This document shows positions 45,561-52,849 of a stretch of 54,423 nt of DNA, piece after piece. The stretch spans positions 1 through 54,423 of the forward strand of contig JAKSTW010000011.1 of the NCBI GenBank assembly GCA_024402405.1. The letters run 5' to 3'. The notes beneath the pieces are model-generated. The model saw only the letters and a list, made by a program, of their open reading frames with translations. It ran no database searches and was not told the origin of the DNA. Position 1 is the first letter of the stretch, and each line of letters starts with the position of its first letter. The DNA is from Spirochaetia bacterium (lineage in GTDB: Bacteria > Spirochaetota > Spirochaetia > CADAEX01). The position numbers were made by a program, and so were the translations under genes.

Positions 45561-48512
45561 TTAAGCCTCGATTCTAGTTTTATCGACATCAGTTATAAAG
45601 TCATTATATAAGTCTGCTGGAACTTCTTGAATTGCAAAATTCATAGTTACAGGACAATCTCCTTTTGCTGTTCCGGGCATTGTTGAAACTTCACCTAAAT
45701 AAATGAACTCCTGTGGGATACCTTCAACTTCTTTAAACTTTCGGACAAATAAATGAAGATGAGTATGACGAGCAGTGTTTTTAATTACATCTAAGCCTCG
45801 ATCACTATCCTGAGTCATGTTATTTGGAGATTGCCACTGGAAAACATTTGAAGTAATGAACTTATCGTGATAATTGATTTCTTCGCGGATGTCGTCTGCT
45901 TTGTATAAATCAACAAAAATAAAATATTGAGGTTTTGCACTTGTGAGTAATCCTGAACCGCGGAAAGAACTGTGGATTTTTTCGTAATTACAAAGTGGGG
46001 CAATACTTCGCATTGAATATTTTCCATAAGGTTTTAAAAATGGGAATCCAAAATCGGCTCGGCCAAATTCTTCATCATATCTTAATAAAGCATATTCAAT
46101 ATAATCGTTTATCCATTTACAGATTTCTTCTTTGTTAGGTGCAGAGAAAAGCTTTGTAACGTTCTGATTTAATGAAATTGTGTTTCCATCGAAGTTCATA
46201 ATTACATCACCGTAAGTTTTTTCTTCTGTAGAGTCAAAGAATTTTCCGGCAAGAAAATTACATGCATTCAGGATGTTATCTTCTTTGCAGTAATCAACAT
46301 ATTTTTTCAAACTGTTTTTTATATCATCAATTGTTGTTGAATTATTAGCGCTGGATACAAGATTATTGATGATACACCATTCTTCAATTCGTTTTGCAGG
46401 AAGTAGCGAATCTAAGAGACGTATGAAAGTTCCAAAAACTTTACTCTGGGAAAGTTGATTTAAAATTACTGATTCTTTGGATGTAATTTCATTTTCTGCA
46501 CTTACAACAAATTCAAAATATGAATGATAGAGAAGATTTCCTTTTTTGATTTTACTAAATACACATGGATCCAAATCAGAACCGTGTTTAATATAATCTG
46601 TCAGATAAGGCATGCGGTTTCCATTATCTTTTCTGAAAACAAAATAAGCTTTTTTCTGATTCACATCGGACATGAATTTTTCTTTATCAATCTGATTCAG
46701 AATCTGCTCTTTCACAATTTTATCAAAGTGAATAAATGTATCACCTGGAATATCAATAAAGTCTGTAGCAACTTCACGAAGTCGAGTCTTCTTATCAGGA
46801 TTTGGATCTTTTGAGAAAACACTGGTCATCAAGAAAGATTTTTGGTAGTTGCCAATAAAGTCTAAAACTGTAAGGAATTCTTTTCCCTTGATTTTACGAA
46901 GGCCACGACCAAGTTGCTGAGTAAATACAATTGAAGATTGAGTTGGACGGAGCATTAAAACAAGATTTACATCCTGAACATCAATACCTTCATTAAAAAT
47001 ATCACGAGAGAAAATATATTGAAGTTTTGAATCATCATCTTCCAGTTGCTGCAAATATTTTTGTCGTTCCGAAACTGAGTTTTCACCAGAAAGAGCAATA
47101 GCATAACCGTCGCCAAGTTTCTTATTAAACTCATCGGCCATAAATTTTGCATGTTCAACAGTTGCACAGAAGCCTAAACATTTTGTTTTGTCTCCATCAT
47201 GGCCATAAAATTTAATCTTTTCAAAAATATAATCTGCACGATTGCTTCGCATAAGCATGCGGGCAACTTCATTAAGATATTCCTCTCCATCATCTGGTGA
47301 ATGAGTAAGTTTTGAATAATCAATTCCTTCTACATCAGTAATTCCAAAATAATGGAAAGGACAAACCAAGTCTTTTTCAAGAGAATCACGAAGACGAATA
47401 TTTACAGCACGGTTAAAATCAAAAATACTGAAAATATCTTTTCCATCAGTTCGATCAGGAGTTGCAGTAAGACCAAGAAGGAACTTTGGTTTGAAGTAAT
47501 TTAAGATTTTTGTATAAGAGTTGTCAGCAGCGTGATGTGCTTCATCAATGATAATGTAATCGAATTCATCAGGAGTAAAATCTTCAAGGTGAATGGCAAG
47601 AGTGCTTTCAGTTACAAAAAGATATTTGCTGTTTTTATTTCCCTTTGAACCTTCATAACGATCAGAAGAATAATCAGGAATAGTTTTTCCAAGAACGTTA
47701 TCAAAAGATTCCTGAGCTTTAATAAGAATGTCTCCACGATGAACAACAAACAGCGCTTTTTTAGGATTGACCTGCATTGCATCAAAAACCGACATATAAG
47801 TTTTTCCAGTTCCAGTTGCTGCAATTGCAAGAGCTTTTGTCTGATTCATTTTACGAAGAGTATTCAATTTTACTATTGCTTCACTTTGCATTTCATTAGG
47901 TTTAATAACCCTTTCTTCAAAGCTGAAAACATCTTTATGTTCTTTCTGAACTTTTTTGATTCCGGCAAGATAGTCGCGGTATTGGATTAAAAATTCATCA
48001 GAAAAATCTTTAGAGTGAGGATCGTTCCAAAGTTCATTAAATTCTTCTAAAACAGATTTAGCAAAAACACCAGGCTTGCGGTTTTCTAAAACTTCTTCGT
48101 TATTGATAACATTCCATTCAACATTCTTTTTAAAGGCTGCACCAGAAATATTTGATGAACCAATAATAATGGTCCATTTTTCTTTATTGTTTTCTTCAGG
48201 ATTTAAAAATAGATAGCCTTTTGCATGAAAGCCTTGATCGCTAGTAGAAGTAAAAATCTTAAGCTGGATATTTTCAAAAGAATTAAGCATTTCAAGAGCC
48301 TGAGGCTGAGTAACATTTATGTAAGTAGAAGCAAGAATCTGGCCTTTTACACCTTTAGCGTTTAAGTCTTTAAGAAGATCCATTAATAGCTGAACACCAC
48401 TTATTCGAATAAACGAAACACAGATTTTAAACTCAGTGCAAGTAGAAAGATTTTCAGTGAGAGTAGTAAAAAAGTTTTTGTTTATTTCATTGGTGATAAG
48501 CTGATTGTTCAT
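45561..48512 (-). CDS. PLD-like plus SF2 helicase protein with DUF3427-type C-terminus
   Basis: A 983-aa multidomain protein. Residues 1-170 resemble a phospholipase D-type nuclease (GFHAKGYLF, an HxK motif at 96-98, and IIIGSSNISG). Next comes an SF2 helicase: Walker A AATGTGKT (231-238), DEAHH (323-327), LTATPDRTDG and motif VI QQLGRGLRKIKG. The last 330 residues match the DUF3427 type. The gene is visibly richer in A+T than its neighbours, with different codon choice (GAA, AAA, ATT), so transfer is likely. Such proteins occur in defence-like settings, but I know of no proof for this one. The partner MutT follows by 2 bp. Confidence 0.88.
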   Translation of the reverse strand: MNNQLITNEINKNFFTTLTENLSTCTEFKICVSFIRISGVQLLMDLLKDLNAKGVKGQILASTYINVTQPQALEMLNSFENIQLKIFTSTSDQGFHAKGYLFLNPEENNKEKWTIIIGSSNISGAAFKKNVEWNVINNEEVLENRKPGVFAKSVLEEFNELWNDPHSKDFSDEFLIQYRDYLAGIKKVQKEHKDVFSFEERVIKPNEMQSEAIVKLNTLRKMNQTKALAIAATGTGKTYMSVFDAMQVNPKKALFVVHRGDILIKAQESFDNVLGKTIPDYSSDRYEGSKGNKNSKYLFVTESTLAIHLEDFTPDEFDYIIIDEAHHAADNSYTKILNYFKPKFLLGLTATPDRTDGKDIFSIFDFNRAVNIRLRDSLEKDLVCPFHYFGITDVEGIDYSKLTHSPDDGEEYLNEVARMLMRSNRADYIFEKIKFYGHDGDKTKCLGFCATVEHAKFMADEFNKKLGDGYAIALSGENSVSERQKYLQQLEDDDSKLQYIFSRDIFNEGIDVQDVNLVLMLRPTQSSIVFTQQLGRGLRKIKGKEFLTVLDFIGNYQKSFLMTSVFSKDPNPDKKTRLREVATDFIDIPGDTFIHFDKIVKEQILNQIDKEKFMSDVNQKKAYFVFRKDNGNRMPYLTDYIKHGSDLDPCVFSKIKKGNLLYHSYFEFVVSAENEITSKESVILNQLSQSKVFGTFIRLLDSLLPAKRIEEWCIINNLVSSANNSTTIDDIKNSLKKYVDYCKEDNILNACNFLAGKFFDSTEEKTYGDVIMNFDGNTISLNQNVTKLFSAPNKEEICKWINDYIEYALLRYDEEFGRADFGFPFLKPYGKYSMRSIAPLCNYEKIHSSFRGSGLLTSAKPQYFIFVDLYKADDIREEINYHDKFITSNVFQWQSPNNMTQDSDRGLDVIKNTARHTHLHLFVRKFKEVEGIPQEFIYLGEVSTMPGTAKGDCPVTMNFAIQEVPADLYNDFITDVDKTRIEA

Positions 48513-48724: not shown

Positions 48725-48835
48725 TGGGAGTGCTTCATCACCGGACGGAACCGTGAGCGTAGGCTGGACACTGTTGCCGGTGAGCTTGCACTCTGGCTTG
48801 AAGAGGGTTTGGCAGAATCATACATTGAATTTTGA
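48725..48835 (+). pseudogene. Possible remnant of a protein C-terminus
   Basis: Between a stop at 48722-48724 and a TGA at 48833-48835 lies a 36-codon open frame without a start codon. It encodes a sensible, charged helical tail (ITGRNRERRLDTVAGE, LALWLEEGLAESYIEF). G+C and codon choice look coding, unlike the AT-rich sequence before it. I read it as the truncated end of a gene cut when the helicase segment arrived. I do not recognise the family; it may also be chance. Confidence 0.4.
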
Positions 48836-48838
48836 AGG

Positions 48839-48867
48839 TTGCAACTATTGCTGAAAATGGGTATATT
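48839..48867 (+). promoter_or_regulatory. Promoter of copper locus, leaderless arrangement
   Basis: TTGCAA (48839-48844), 17-nt spacer, TATATT (48862-48867), 6 nt to the ATG at 48874. No ribosome binding site and no obvious CsoR/CueR operator. Confidence 0.55.
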
Positions 48868-48873
48868 TGAATC

Positions 48874-49107
48874 ATGAAGACTACATTACAGATTGCCGGT
48901 ATGCGGTGCGCCGGTTGTTCATCTGCCTGCGAGAAGGCCCTGAAGAAAGTGAACGGGGTCATCTCCGCATCTGTGAACCTGGCTGCTGCCAAAGCTGATA
49001 TAGAATTTGACGATAAGATCGCCACTGTGGATGATTTCTGCGATGCCATTGAGGACGCAGGTTTCGCTGTGGTTGACGATATCGAAGAAGAAAAAAAAAA
49101 GAACTGA
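48874..49107 (+). CDS. Heavy-metal-associated domain, CopZ-like (zero-frame product)
   Basis: A 77-aa protein that is a single HMA domain: [20 protein letters not shown] with the Cu(I)-binding CAGC at residues 12-15, then the ferredoxin-like fold ending near residue 68. A Glu/Lys tail follows and the frame stops at TGA 49105-49107, straight after a run of ten A. Alone this is the size of a CopZ copper chaperone. The same domain is also the N-terminus of the following ATPase if ribosomes shift -1 at 49095-49101. The promoter implies a leaderless mRNA. Confidence 0.85.
49095..49101 (+). promoter_or_regulatory. -1 frameshift slippery heptamer A AAA AAG
   Basis: Zero-frame codons are AAA (49096-49098) and AAG (49099-49101), preceded by A at 49095: the canonical X XXY YYZ heptamer, the same as in E. 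coli dnaX. After a -1 slip the next codons are GAA CTG AAA GCT GCT GAG, which read straight into the ATPase without a stop. Possible downstream pairings are CTGAAA (49104-49109) with TTTCAG (49142-49147) or GCTGA (49113-49117) with TCAGC (49144-49148). Confidence 0.6.
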
Positions 49108-51014
49108 AAGCTGCTGAGCGACGCCTGATCCGGGCCGCCTGTTTCAGCATACCTCTTTTCCTCATCGCCATGGTTCCCATGCTTCTGGGAATCACATTTC
49201 CTTTATGTCCGTATATCTGCCTGATCCTGGTGCTGCCTGTGATGTTTATCGGACGCAGATATTACACTGCCGGATTCCGGAATCTGTTCAGACTTGCTCC
49301 CAATATGGATTCCCTGATCGCTGTCAGTACTGCCGCGTCATTCCTCTATTCCTGCTGGTCACTCATATCCGGGGGACATCATTTCTACTTTGAGAGCATC
49401 GGAATGATCATCACTCTGGTCATGCTGGGAAAATATCTGGAGAGCCGTTCTGTGGCACATTCTGGTGAGACCCTGAAGAAGCTGATGCAGCTGATTCCTG
49501 ATAAAGTGACTGTCATACGCCGCGGACGTGAGCGTGAGATCGATGTGGCTAAGATTCTGGTGGGAGATACTGTGCTGATCCATCCGGGGGAGCGTATTCC
49601 TGTAGATGGCACAGTGACTGAAGGTGCCTCCTGTGTGGATGAGTCGATTCTCACCGGAGAGAGTATGCCTGTGGAGAAAAATCCCGGCGACAGGGTCATC
49701 GGCGGCACTGGCAATATAGACGGAATGCTCAGATTCAGGGCAGAGAAGGTGGGGCGTGATACTGTGCTTTCCGGCATAATACGCATGGTGGAGAAAGCCC
49801 AGAGTTCCAAGCCCAGGATCGCCCGGCTGGCAGATGTCATATCAGGGTATTTCACAGTATTTGTCATGATAGCCGCACTGCTGGCTGCCGTCATCTGGTT
49901 CCTTGCAGGTCAGACACATGAATTCATACTACGGGTCTTTGTTTCTGTGCTGGTCATTGCCTGTCCGTGTGCACTTGGTCTGGCTACACCTGTAGCTGTC
50001 ATTACCGGAGTGGGGCGGGGTGCTGAGGCTGGGCTGTTGTTTAAAAGTGCCTCTGTGTTTGAAGTCTTTTCCAGAATAAAAGTGATTTTCTTTGATAAGA
50101 CCGGTACGCTTACAGTGGGCAGACCTGAGGTGACAGATGTGGTTCCTGTTGATATGACAGCTGACACTCTGCTGTCATTGGCGGCGGCTGTGGAGAAATA
50201 TTCAGAGCATCCTCTGGGGAAGGCTCTGGTGGCTTACTGCGAAAAAAAGGGAATCGATATTCCTGAAGCTGCCGATTTCAGGTCTGAGGCCGGACTGGGG
50301 GTCAGATGCATTGCTGACGGTAAGTCTGTAGCAGCAGGAAATGCCAGATTTATGGGAACTATGGGGATAACACCTGATACCCGTGATTCCGGTACCTGCA
50401 TTTATATCGCTGTGGATGGCAGGCTGGCCGGTACTGTATATTTTGCAGATACGATGAAGCCGGAAAGTGCGGACACTGTGGCTGCATTCCGTAAACATGG
50501 GATCCGGACTGTGATGCTGACCGGTGACAACCGTGATGCCGCATCTGCCATGGCTGCTGAATGCGGTGTGGACGGATACCGGGATTCTCTGATGCCTGAG
50601 GAGAAAGAGGCCTGCATAAGGGAATACCGTGAGAAACTGAGTCCTGTGGCCATGGTGGGAGATGGTGTGAATGATGCAGTGGCCATGGCTGCCGCTGATG
50701 TGAGCATTGCTGTGGGCACCGGGGCTGACTGCACACGGGAGCTGTCTGATGTGGTGATCGTGAAAGATGATGTGACCGGCGTTTATGAGGCCATGGATTT
50801 GAGCTGTGCTGTCATGAGGAATATCAGGCAGAATCTGGCGTGGGCTTTCGGTTACAACCTGCTGATGATACCGGTGGCTGCCGGTGCTCTGTACCCTGTG
50901 TGCGGACTGCTGCTGAATCCTATGATCGCGGCTGCCGCCATGTCCTGCTCATCTCTTACTGTGGTGGGCAATGCTCTGAGACTGCGGAAATGGCGTCCTG
51001 CATCTGCTGCCTGA
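49098..51014 (+). CDS. copA: Copper-transporting P-type ATPase CopA (-1 frame part)
   Basis: The ATPase frame is open from before 49083 to 51014; an ATG at 49170 (614 aa) is the first start inside it, but sequence before it ([15 protein letters not shown]) is clearly CopA-like, so the natural N-terminus is the HMA domain joined by frameshift (713 aa total). Motifs: [22 protein letters not shown] (transmembrane CPC at 49972-49980), DKTGTLT (Asp at 50094), SEHPLGKAL (HP motif), [11 protein letters not shown] and GYN near 50850. It exports Cu(I) across the inner membrane. The start lies after the poly-A run; a true indel or sequencing error is the alternative. Confidence 0.9.
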
Positions 51015-51019
51015 GAACG

Positions 51020-52849
51020 TCAGTCCTCAAGCCTCTCTGACATCTTCCTTTCCATTCTGTTCAGGATCTTCTTTCTGAGTCGGATCGAGGATGGTGTGAA
51101 TTCCACCAGCTCATCGTCCCTGATGATGGTCAGTGCTCTCTCTATCGTCATCGGAAGCACAGGAGTCAGTATGACGTTGGTATCTTTTCCTGATGCACGC
51201 ATATTGGAAAGCTGCTTGGTCTTGGTTGGGTTCAGATAAAGGTCGAATTCCCTGTTGTGCTCTCCTACGATCATTCCCTCGTAGACCGGGTCTCCCGGAA
51301 CTATGAACATCTTGCCTCTTGGCTCCAGGTTGAAGATTCCGTAGGCAACGGCCTCTCCGCTTCTGTCTGCCACCAGAGATCCTGTGAGACGGGTAGGGAA
51401 GTCTCCCTTGTATTCACTGTATCCTGTGAAATAGGAGTTCATTATTCCTGTTCCTTTTGTATCTGTGAGGAACTTGTCCCTGTATCCTATGAGTGCTCTG
51501 GATGGGATGGAGAATTCCAGTGTTATATGGTCTCCCTGTCCGGCAGAGTAGTTCTCGATTATTCCCTTTCTCATCATAAGTGTCTCTGAGACGACGCCGG
51601 AATAATCTTTATTCACATTGATGACAACGTGCTCCATAGGCTCCAGCTTGTTGCCGTTCTCATCAGTCTTGAATATGACTTTTGCACGGCCTACGCAGAA
51701 TTCGTATCCCTCACGGCGCATGGTCTCGATAAGAATTGCCATCTGGAACTCTCCGCGGCCCTTGACGATATAACCACCGTCGCTGTCAGTTGCTTCCTCC
51801 ACCTGCAGAGCCACATTGCGCAGTGTCTCTTTCTTCAGCCGTTCCAGTATCTTGCTGCCCTGGACGAATTTTCCCTCTCTGCCTGAAAGAGGAGAGTTGT
51901 TGTGGAGAAAACGCATGGAGACAGTAGGTTCGTCCACTTCGATCCTTGGCAGTGCCTCTGGTTCCAGTGCGGAACAGATCGTGTCTCCTATGAAAATATT
52001 GCTGACTCCTGACATGATCACTATGTCACCGGCTGTGGCTGCATCCACTACCTGCAGCTCTGTCCCTTTGTATACCTGGAGCTGTGAGACTTTGAACGGT
52101 TTTGGCTGTCCGTCCTTGCCTATTATTGCCAGTCGGTCATTGTTTGTGACTTTACCGCTGTTGATCTTTCCTATGGCCATTCTGCCCAGATAATCGGAGT
52201 AGTCCAGATCTGCCACCAGCATCTGGAATGGTTTGTCCACATTGCATTCCGGAGCAGGAATGTGCTCTATGATTGTGTCCATGAGAGGTGCCAGATTGTC
52301 TGACTCATCCTCCAGGCTGAACTTGGCTATACCTTTCTTTCCGTTTGCATACAGCACCGGAGCATCCAGATAATGATCGTCAGCTCCCAGATCCAGCAGA
52401 AGTTCCAGAACATCGTTGTACACTTCCTCCGGGCGGGCATCTTCCCTGTCGATCTTGTTTATGAGGATAATGAGCTCCAGCTTCAGTGCCAGGGCTTTTG
52501 AAAGGACGAATCTGGTCTGCGGAAGCGGTCCCTCTGCCGCATCCACCAGCAATACTACACCATCTACCATGGAAAGAGCTCTCTCCACCTCTCCGCCGAA
52601 ATCTGAGTGACCCGGTGTGTCCAGAATGTTGATCTTCTTGTCTTTCCAGAGCACCTCGCAGTTTTTGGCTGAGATAGTTATTCCTCTCTCTCGTTCGATG
52701 TCGCCGCTGTCCATGACACGGTCGCACATTTTGTCCAGATCCTTGAAGGTTCCGCTCTGTCTGAACATGGCATCCACCAGTGTGGTCTTGCCGTGGTCTA
52801 CATGAGCTATGATAGCTATATTCCTGATTGATTCATTCCTCGAGTCCAT
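51020..52849 (-). CDS. typA: Translational GTPase TypA/BipA
   Basis: A 609-aa ribosome-associated GTPase related to EF-G. It helps ribosome assembly and stress adaptation. G1 is AHVDHGKTT (residues 15-23), G3 DTPGHSDFGGEVERAL, G4 NKIDRED. The GREGKF and RGEFQMAILIETMRREGYEF segments (EF-G-like domains) and the C-terminal domain with KTKQLSNMRASGKD are typical. Length matches the family (about 605-615 aa). GGAG precedes the ATG. It converges on copA with a 5-bp gap. Confidence 0.97.
   Translation of the reverse strand: MDSRNESIRNIAIIAHVDHGKTTLVDAMFRQSGTFKDLDKMCDRVMDSGDIERERGITISAKNCEVLWKDKKINILDTPGHSDFGGEVERALSMVDGVVLLVDAAEGPLPQTRFVLSKALALKLELIILINKIDREDARPEEVYNDVLELLLDLGADDHYLDAPVLYANGKKGIAKFSLEDESDNLAPLMDTIIEHIPAPECNVDKPFQMLVADLDYSDYLGRMAIGKINSGKVTNNDRLAIIGKDGQPKPFKVSQLQVYKGTELQVVDAATAGDIVIMSGVSNIFIGDTICSALEPEALPRIEVDEPTVSMRFLHNNSPLSGREGKFVQGSKILERLKKETLRNVALQVEEATDSDGGYIVKGRGEFQMAILIETMRREGYEFCVGRAKVIFKTDENGNKLEPMEHVVINVNKDYSGVVSETLMMRKGIIENYSAGQGDHITLEFSIPSRALIGYRDKFLTDTKGTGIMNSYFTGYSEYKGDFPTRLTGSLVADRSGEAVAYGIFNLEPRGKMFIVPGDPVYEGMIVGEHNREFDLYLNPTKTKQLSNMRASGKDTNVILTPVLPMTIERALTIIRDDELVEFTPSSIRLRKKILNRMERKMSERLED

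Follow-up and report, generated by a model that had tools for sequence, protein, structure and literature searches.

The stretch of DNA analyzed here, referred to as the window, is a contig of 54,423 nucleotides (G+C content of 44%) from a Spirochaetia bacterium with a draft genome of 53 contigs and 1.52 Mb. On its forward strand, an open reading frame of 77 amino acids (48874 to 49107) starts with ATG at 48874, encodes a single CopZ-like HMA domain (PF00403, E value of 1e-13) with a GMRCAGC motif, and ends in KKKN ahead of a TGA stop at 49105 to 49107. This was the only HMA match in the genome. Read directly, the 3' end of this zero frame is GAA GAA GAA AAA AAA AAG AAC TGA. It contains a homopolymer of ten A residues (A10, positions 49091 to 49100, forward strand), which is a candidate site of slippage or of an indel and, placed at the frame junction, belongs to the size class of poly(A) slippage sites (about 8 to 9 or more A residues). 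Overlapping the run, and in register with the zero frame, is the heptamer A_AAA_AAG (49095 to 49101, forward strand), a dnaX-type slippery sequence of the form X_XXY_YYZ that is followed early by the zero-frame stop. The -1 frame of the same strand is open from 49077 up to a stop at 51012 to 51014 and encodes a CopA P1B-type ATPase, with 637 amino acids counted from 49101. The two frames share just 31 bases (49077 to 49107), and the A10 run lies inside this overlap. Direct reading thus confirmed what an earlier note on this DNA had described: a 77-amino-acid HMA frame, a -1 frame that continues without a stop into a P-type ATPase, and an in-register heptamer within a run of ten A residues.

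Independent initiation of the ATPase was considered and rejected. Its first start codon (ATG at 49170) lies in the middle of TM1 and lacks a Shine-Dalgarno (SD) sequence, and no ATG, GTG, or TTG was found in the -1 frame upstream of that position, so separate initiation is unlikely. Since the ATPase has no usable start of its own, we treat copA as one gene in two frames, not as two genes. The ATPase scored 589 bits against TIGR01511 (cutoff, 397 bits), and its best match among solved structures was 3j08, a copper-exporting P-type ATPase. The motifs CPC, DKTGTLT, HP, GDGVND, and MSCSS were all found, and the gene showed the full set of features of a P1B-type copper ATPase (CopA), namely CPC in TM6, DKTGT, HP, GDGxND, YN, MxxSS, and an N-terminal HMA domain with CxxC. 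At its GDGVND stretch the ATPase departed from the GDGINDAPAL consensus.

Named genomes and the class supplied homologues of the ATPase, and the alignment comprised 112 sequences, that of the window among them. In all homologues with a readable N terminus, the HMA domain (when present) and the ATPase were in one frame. The sister-genus orthologues (48 to 49% identity) were likewise fused in one frame, with a linker of EEKSEKEKNEL versus EEEKKK/EL in the window; the sister-genus stretch reads FTPVEAEEKSEKEKNELAIMARDLIF. In one sister genome, the gene was divided over two contigs, whose overlapping ends form a single continuous frame. When all homologue loci were searched for conservation of the heptamer and of the split, A-rich linkers were encountered and the frames were intact. 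Judged from these alignments, an A-rich linker is common to the window gene and its relatives but the split is not; it is private to this genome among the readable homologues, sister-genus orthologues included. No readable relative keeps the split, and a single genome, from a 53-contig assembly, carries it. Genomes of the same genus had a different CopA, 44 to 45% identical to the product of the window gene, whose own closest named relative in the set was a Treponema sequence (57%). This kinship fits the spirochaete origin given in the earlier note. The conserved neighbor of copA is typA (51020 to 52849, reverse strand). Two genomes of the same genus retain the typA-pcnB block (TypA 85 to 86% identical) but lack copA in it, including on this side of typA. 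From this gene content, the window copA appears to be accessory in the lineage. Searches for close copA relatives in viral contigs, in plasmids, and by DNA comparison with relatives gave nothing usable.

All readable relatives being fused, the true gene could be a single open frame that was split by an assembly or consensus error in A10. Homopolymers are the usual place of indel errors, and such an origin would agree with a multicontig draft and with an ATPase that lacks its own start. However, an A14 run and several A9 runs of the same assembly sit in intact frames, and homopolymer errors are therefore not general in this assembly; we regard this explanation as unlikely. The earlier note had taken a run of either 9 or 11 A residues as the mark of a single open frame, which is half wrong, as one A fewer opens the third frame and not that of the ATPase. 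The A10 run was the only A run of at least 9 residues within any protein-coding gene of the window. Across the 1.52 Mb of the genome, a search for runs of A9 or longer returned 43 distinct runs, most of them intergenic or within intact frames, and each was screened for one frame ending and another opening at the run. Only copA was convincingly broken in this manner. Two other candidates were rejected: L115 resembles a pair of neighboring genes, and in L118 the break lies away from its A run. L118 (G000:C16:2269-5277) carries at about 1400 to 1740 a cytidylate-kinase-like frame, a name given from inspection only, with more than one frame change just 3' of an in-frame A9, and it appears to be a decaying gene of the same genome. 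Two further runs were unusually long for this genome: an A18 run at position 2000 of L155 (G000:C34:54749-58766), for which the same strand offers no long frame, and the A14 run at about position 1500 of L124, which codes for KKKKK near the C terminus of an intact gene.

The earlier note had interpreted the junction as programmed -1 ribosomal frameshifting at A_AAA_AAG, which would yield CopZ and CopA in a fixed ratio from one gene. The in-register heptamer, the presence of only one HMA domain in the genome, and a possible hairpin that starts about 10 nucleotides 3' of the heptamer (49112 to 49149, forward strand; -15.5 to -15.7 kcal/mol) are consistent with this. However, the hairpin was of unexceptional stability (near the 9th percentile among windows of equal length in the gene, with a z score of about -1 to -1.8), and no SD-like GGAG element was found 5' of the heptamer. 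The exact register had been put forward as setting the junction apart from just any indel, an argument that carries little weight because any A run plus G that ends a frame gives this register one time in three. It is further weakened by the frequency of in-frame A_AAA_AAG, which was about as common as codon usage predicts: 18 were observed across 170 coding sequences of the genome, a sample biased towards the surroundings of A runs and tRNA genes, versus 22.3 ± 4.2 expected from within-gene shuffling of synonymous codons. The heptamer is thus not avoided. Seven more in-register copies were found in other reading frames of the window, one of them within the ATPase frame itself, and A_AAA_AAG in register is not special in this genome.

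In E. coli, A_AAA_AAG is strongly shifty and is under-represented, with the deficit greatest in genes of high expression (PMC5009743, PMC3711429); it owes its high shiftiness to the weak pairing of the only tRNA-Lys with AAG (PMC5009743). The genome studied here encodes both tRNA-Lys(CUU) and tRNA-Lys(UUU), so that the latter is not the sole lysine tRNA, and by analogy the former should weaken dnaX-type slippage at A_AAA_AAG. This point counts against programming, but motifs of this kind serve many insertion sequences in species with tRNA-Lys(CUU) as well (PMC4066793). The dnaX gene of the same genome was considered as a precedent for use of the heptamer and rejected, being one intact frame without an A_AAA_AAG site. 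With a second lysine tRNA, a heptamer that is not avoided, unconvincing stimulators, a dnaX gene without the site, and a split kept in no readable relative, programmed -1 ribosomal frameshifting of the dnaX type is unsupported and, in our judgment, very improbable. The part of the original proposal that the anatomy of the locus does back is the potential of one gene for two products, an HMA-only protein and an HMA-ATPase.

A real indel in A10 might instead have turned the pump off, either as a recent loss of function that left the CopZ part or through a reversible, phase-variable run. Homopolymers are mutable, this genome alone among the readable ones has the split, and the sequence of the ATPase points in the same direction. 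At 142 positions that were each at least 90% conserved in the other aligned ATPases, the truncated fragment L098 being left out of the count, the window ATPase was altered at 21; the median of the others was 4, and similarly isolated sequences mostly had 6 to 17 changes. Additionally, its N-domain (nucleotide-binding) loop was shorter than usual by about 9 residues. The TypA encoded by the same genome was not accelerated (changes at 7 of 250 positions). The excess of conserved-site changes and the short loop mean that the constraint on the ATPase looks loosened, and, on the sequence comparison, the protein may be losing function. The broken appearance of L118 also fits inactivation. On the other hand, no stop or second frameshift was found within the 637 ATPase codons and the catalytic motifs were kept, some slippage on A10 is hard to avoid, and no other A run of at least 9 residues convincingly breaks a gene here. 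The absence of a further lesion across the 637 codons also disfavors a long-standing neutral pseudogene. Overall, a pump switched off by the indel is possible but somewhat unlikely.

The explanation that we favor, tentatively and with a little less than even confidence, is a lineage-specific indel in the A10 run of one copA gene, with RNA polymerase slippage probably yielding some full-length CopA. Sequence and relatives show a single gene for an HMA domain, a linker, and a P1B-type ATPase, accessory in the lineage and located beside typA. In its A-rich Glu/Lys linker, a net one-base change has created the A10 run and shifted the ATPase to the -1 frame. Normal decoding would then give the 77-amino-acid CopZ-like protein, which is seen as an open reading frame and is presumably produced. 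RNA polymerase would slip on A10, giving a minority of transcripts with an extra A from which full-length CopA could be made, with a small further amount perhaps coming from -1 slippage of the ribosome on this run. Both kinds of slippage are proposed because A9 to A11 runs elsewhere behave in this way: the A9 run of Thermus dnaX slips in transcription (PMC3711429, PMC5009743), and the A11 run of Citrobacter tssM1 does so at 20 to 25% (PMC4256274). Transcriptional slippage at A10 is a more likely recoding route than a ribosomal frameshift. Either an extra-A transcript or a -1 ribosomal slip would create the identical junction peptide EEEKKKEL, and its detection by mass spectrometry would therefore show recoding but not the route by which it occurs. 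The A10 split is not demonstrably selected as a switch, and we see in it a real split with a weak case for programming.

Among known systems, tssM1 of Citrobacter rodentium, an interrupted gene rescued by transcriptional slippage at A11 (PMC4256274), resembles copA in several respects. Both genes are interrupted just 3' of a poly(A) run and have homologues that are normally uninterrupted, and in both the default product is short, while the full-length protein would come from an A added in transcription. In contrast to the putative slippage at copA, slippage and function of tssM1 were demonstrated by reporter, mass spectrometry, and phenotype; the run here also is A10 and the gene encodes a copper ATPase. 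In insect endosymbionts, genes with poly(A) runs yield 12 to 50% corrected transcripts (reviewed in PMC5009743), and there, too, a gene with a frameshift is retained and carries a long A stretch at which slippage in transcription can correct it. Unlike the genomes of those endosymbionts, the present one has 1.5 Mb and is not extremely AT rich, with the mid-range G+C content of the window. The comparison with the dnaX tau/gamma products is mixed. The heptamer is that of E. coli and the run is of the Thermus A9 type, and Thermus, which like the present genome has two lysine tRNAs, relies for dnaX on slippage in transcription and not on the ribosome (PMC5009743). However, the zero frame encodes the long product in both E. 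coli and Thermus dnaX, and the SD and stem-loop stimulators of E. coli dnaX have no convincing counterparts at copA.

A -1 ribosomal frameshift is also known from E. coli copA, where it gives CopA(Z) (Meydan 2017 and Drees 2017, as cited in PMC9548414). In both genes, the first HMA domain of a single copA can be released as a protein of chaperone size, and no other HMA chaperone gene was found in the genome. The slippery heptamer of E. coli copA differs from A_AAA_AAG. The full-length pump of E. coli is read in the zero frame, and its short chaperone results from the -1 shift (PMC5009743), whereas here the zero frame is short, the pump needs the shift, and the site is A10. With this reversed topology, the locus is not a simple independent version of the E. 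coli gene, as had been suggested. A stronger reading would be standing slippage at A10, with the chaperone as the default product, the pump recoded, and the pump level set by slippage. This would be a CopZ/CopA recoding system that evolved separately, probably in a spirochaete; we consider this reading decidedly doubtful. Were the split real and both products formed, the CopZ/CopA pair would have arisen from a single gene on more than one occasion, through different slippage mechanisms with opposite default products, and the reason for this could be put to a simple test. Should it prove to be an indel or an error, the split would illustrate that an in-register slippery heptamer alone proves little where such heptamers are common.

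Beside copA, on the reverse strand (45561 to 48512) and in DNA of low G+C content (33%), is a gene for a 983-amino-acid helicase/restriction-like protein with an EcoAI R-type/RadD-like match. Both this gene and copA are absent beside typA in the two same-genus genomes, and the stretch that carries them may be a lineage-specific insertion. Within the AT-rich intergenic DNA 5' of copA, a short patch richer in G+C (48730 to 48850) resembles a remnant of coding sequence.
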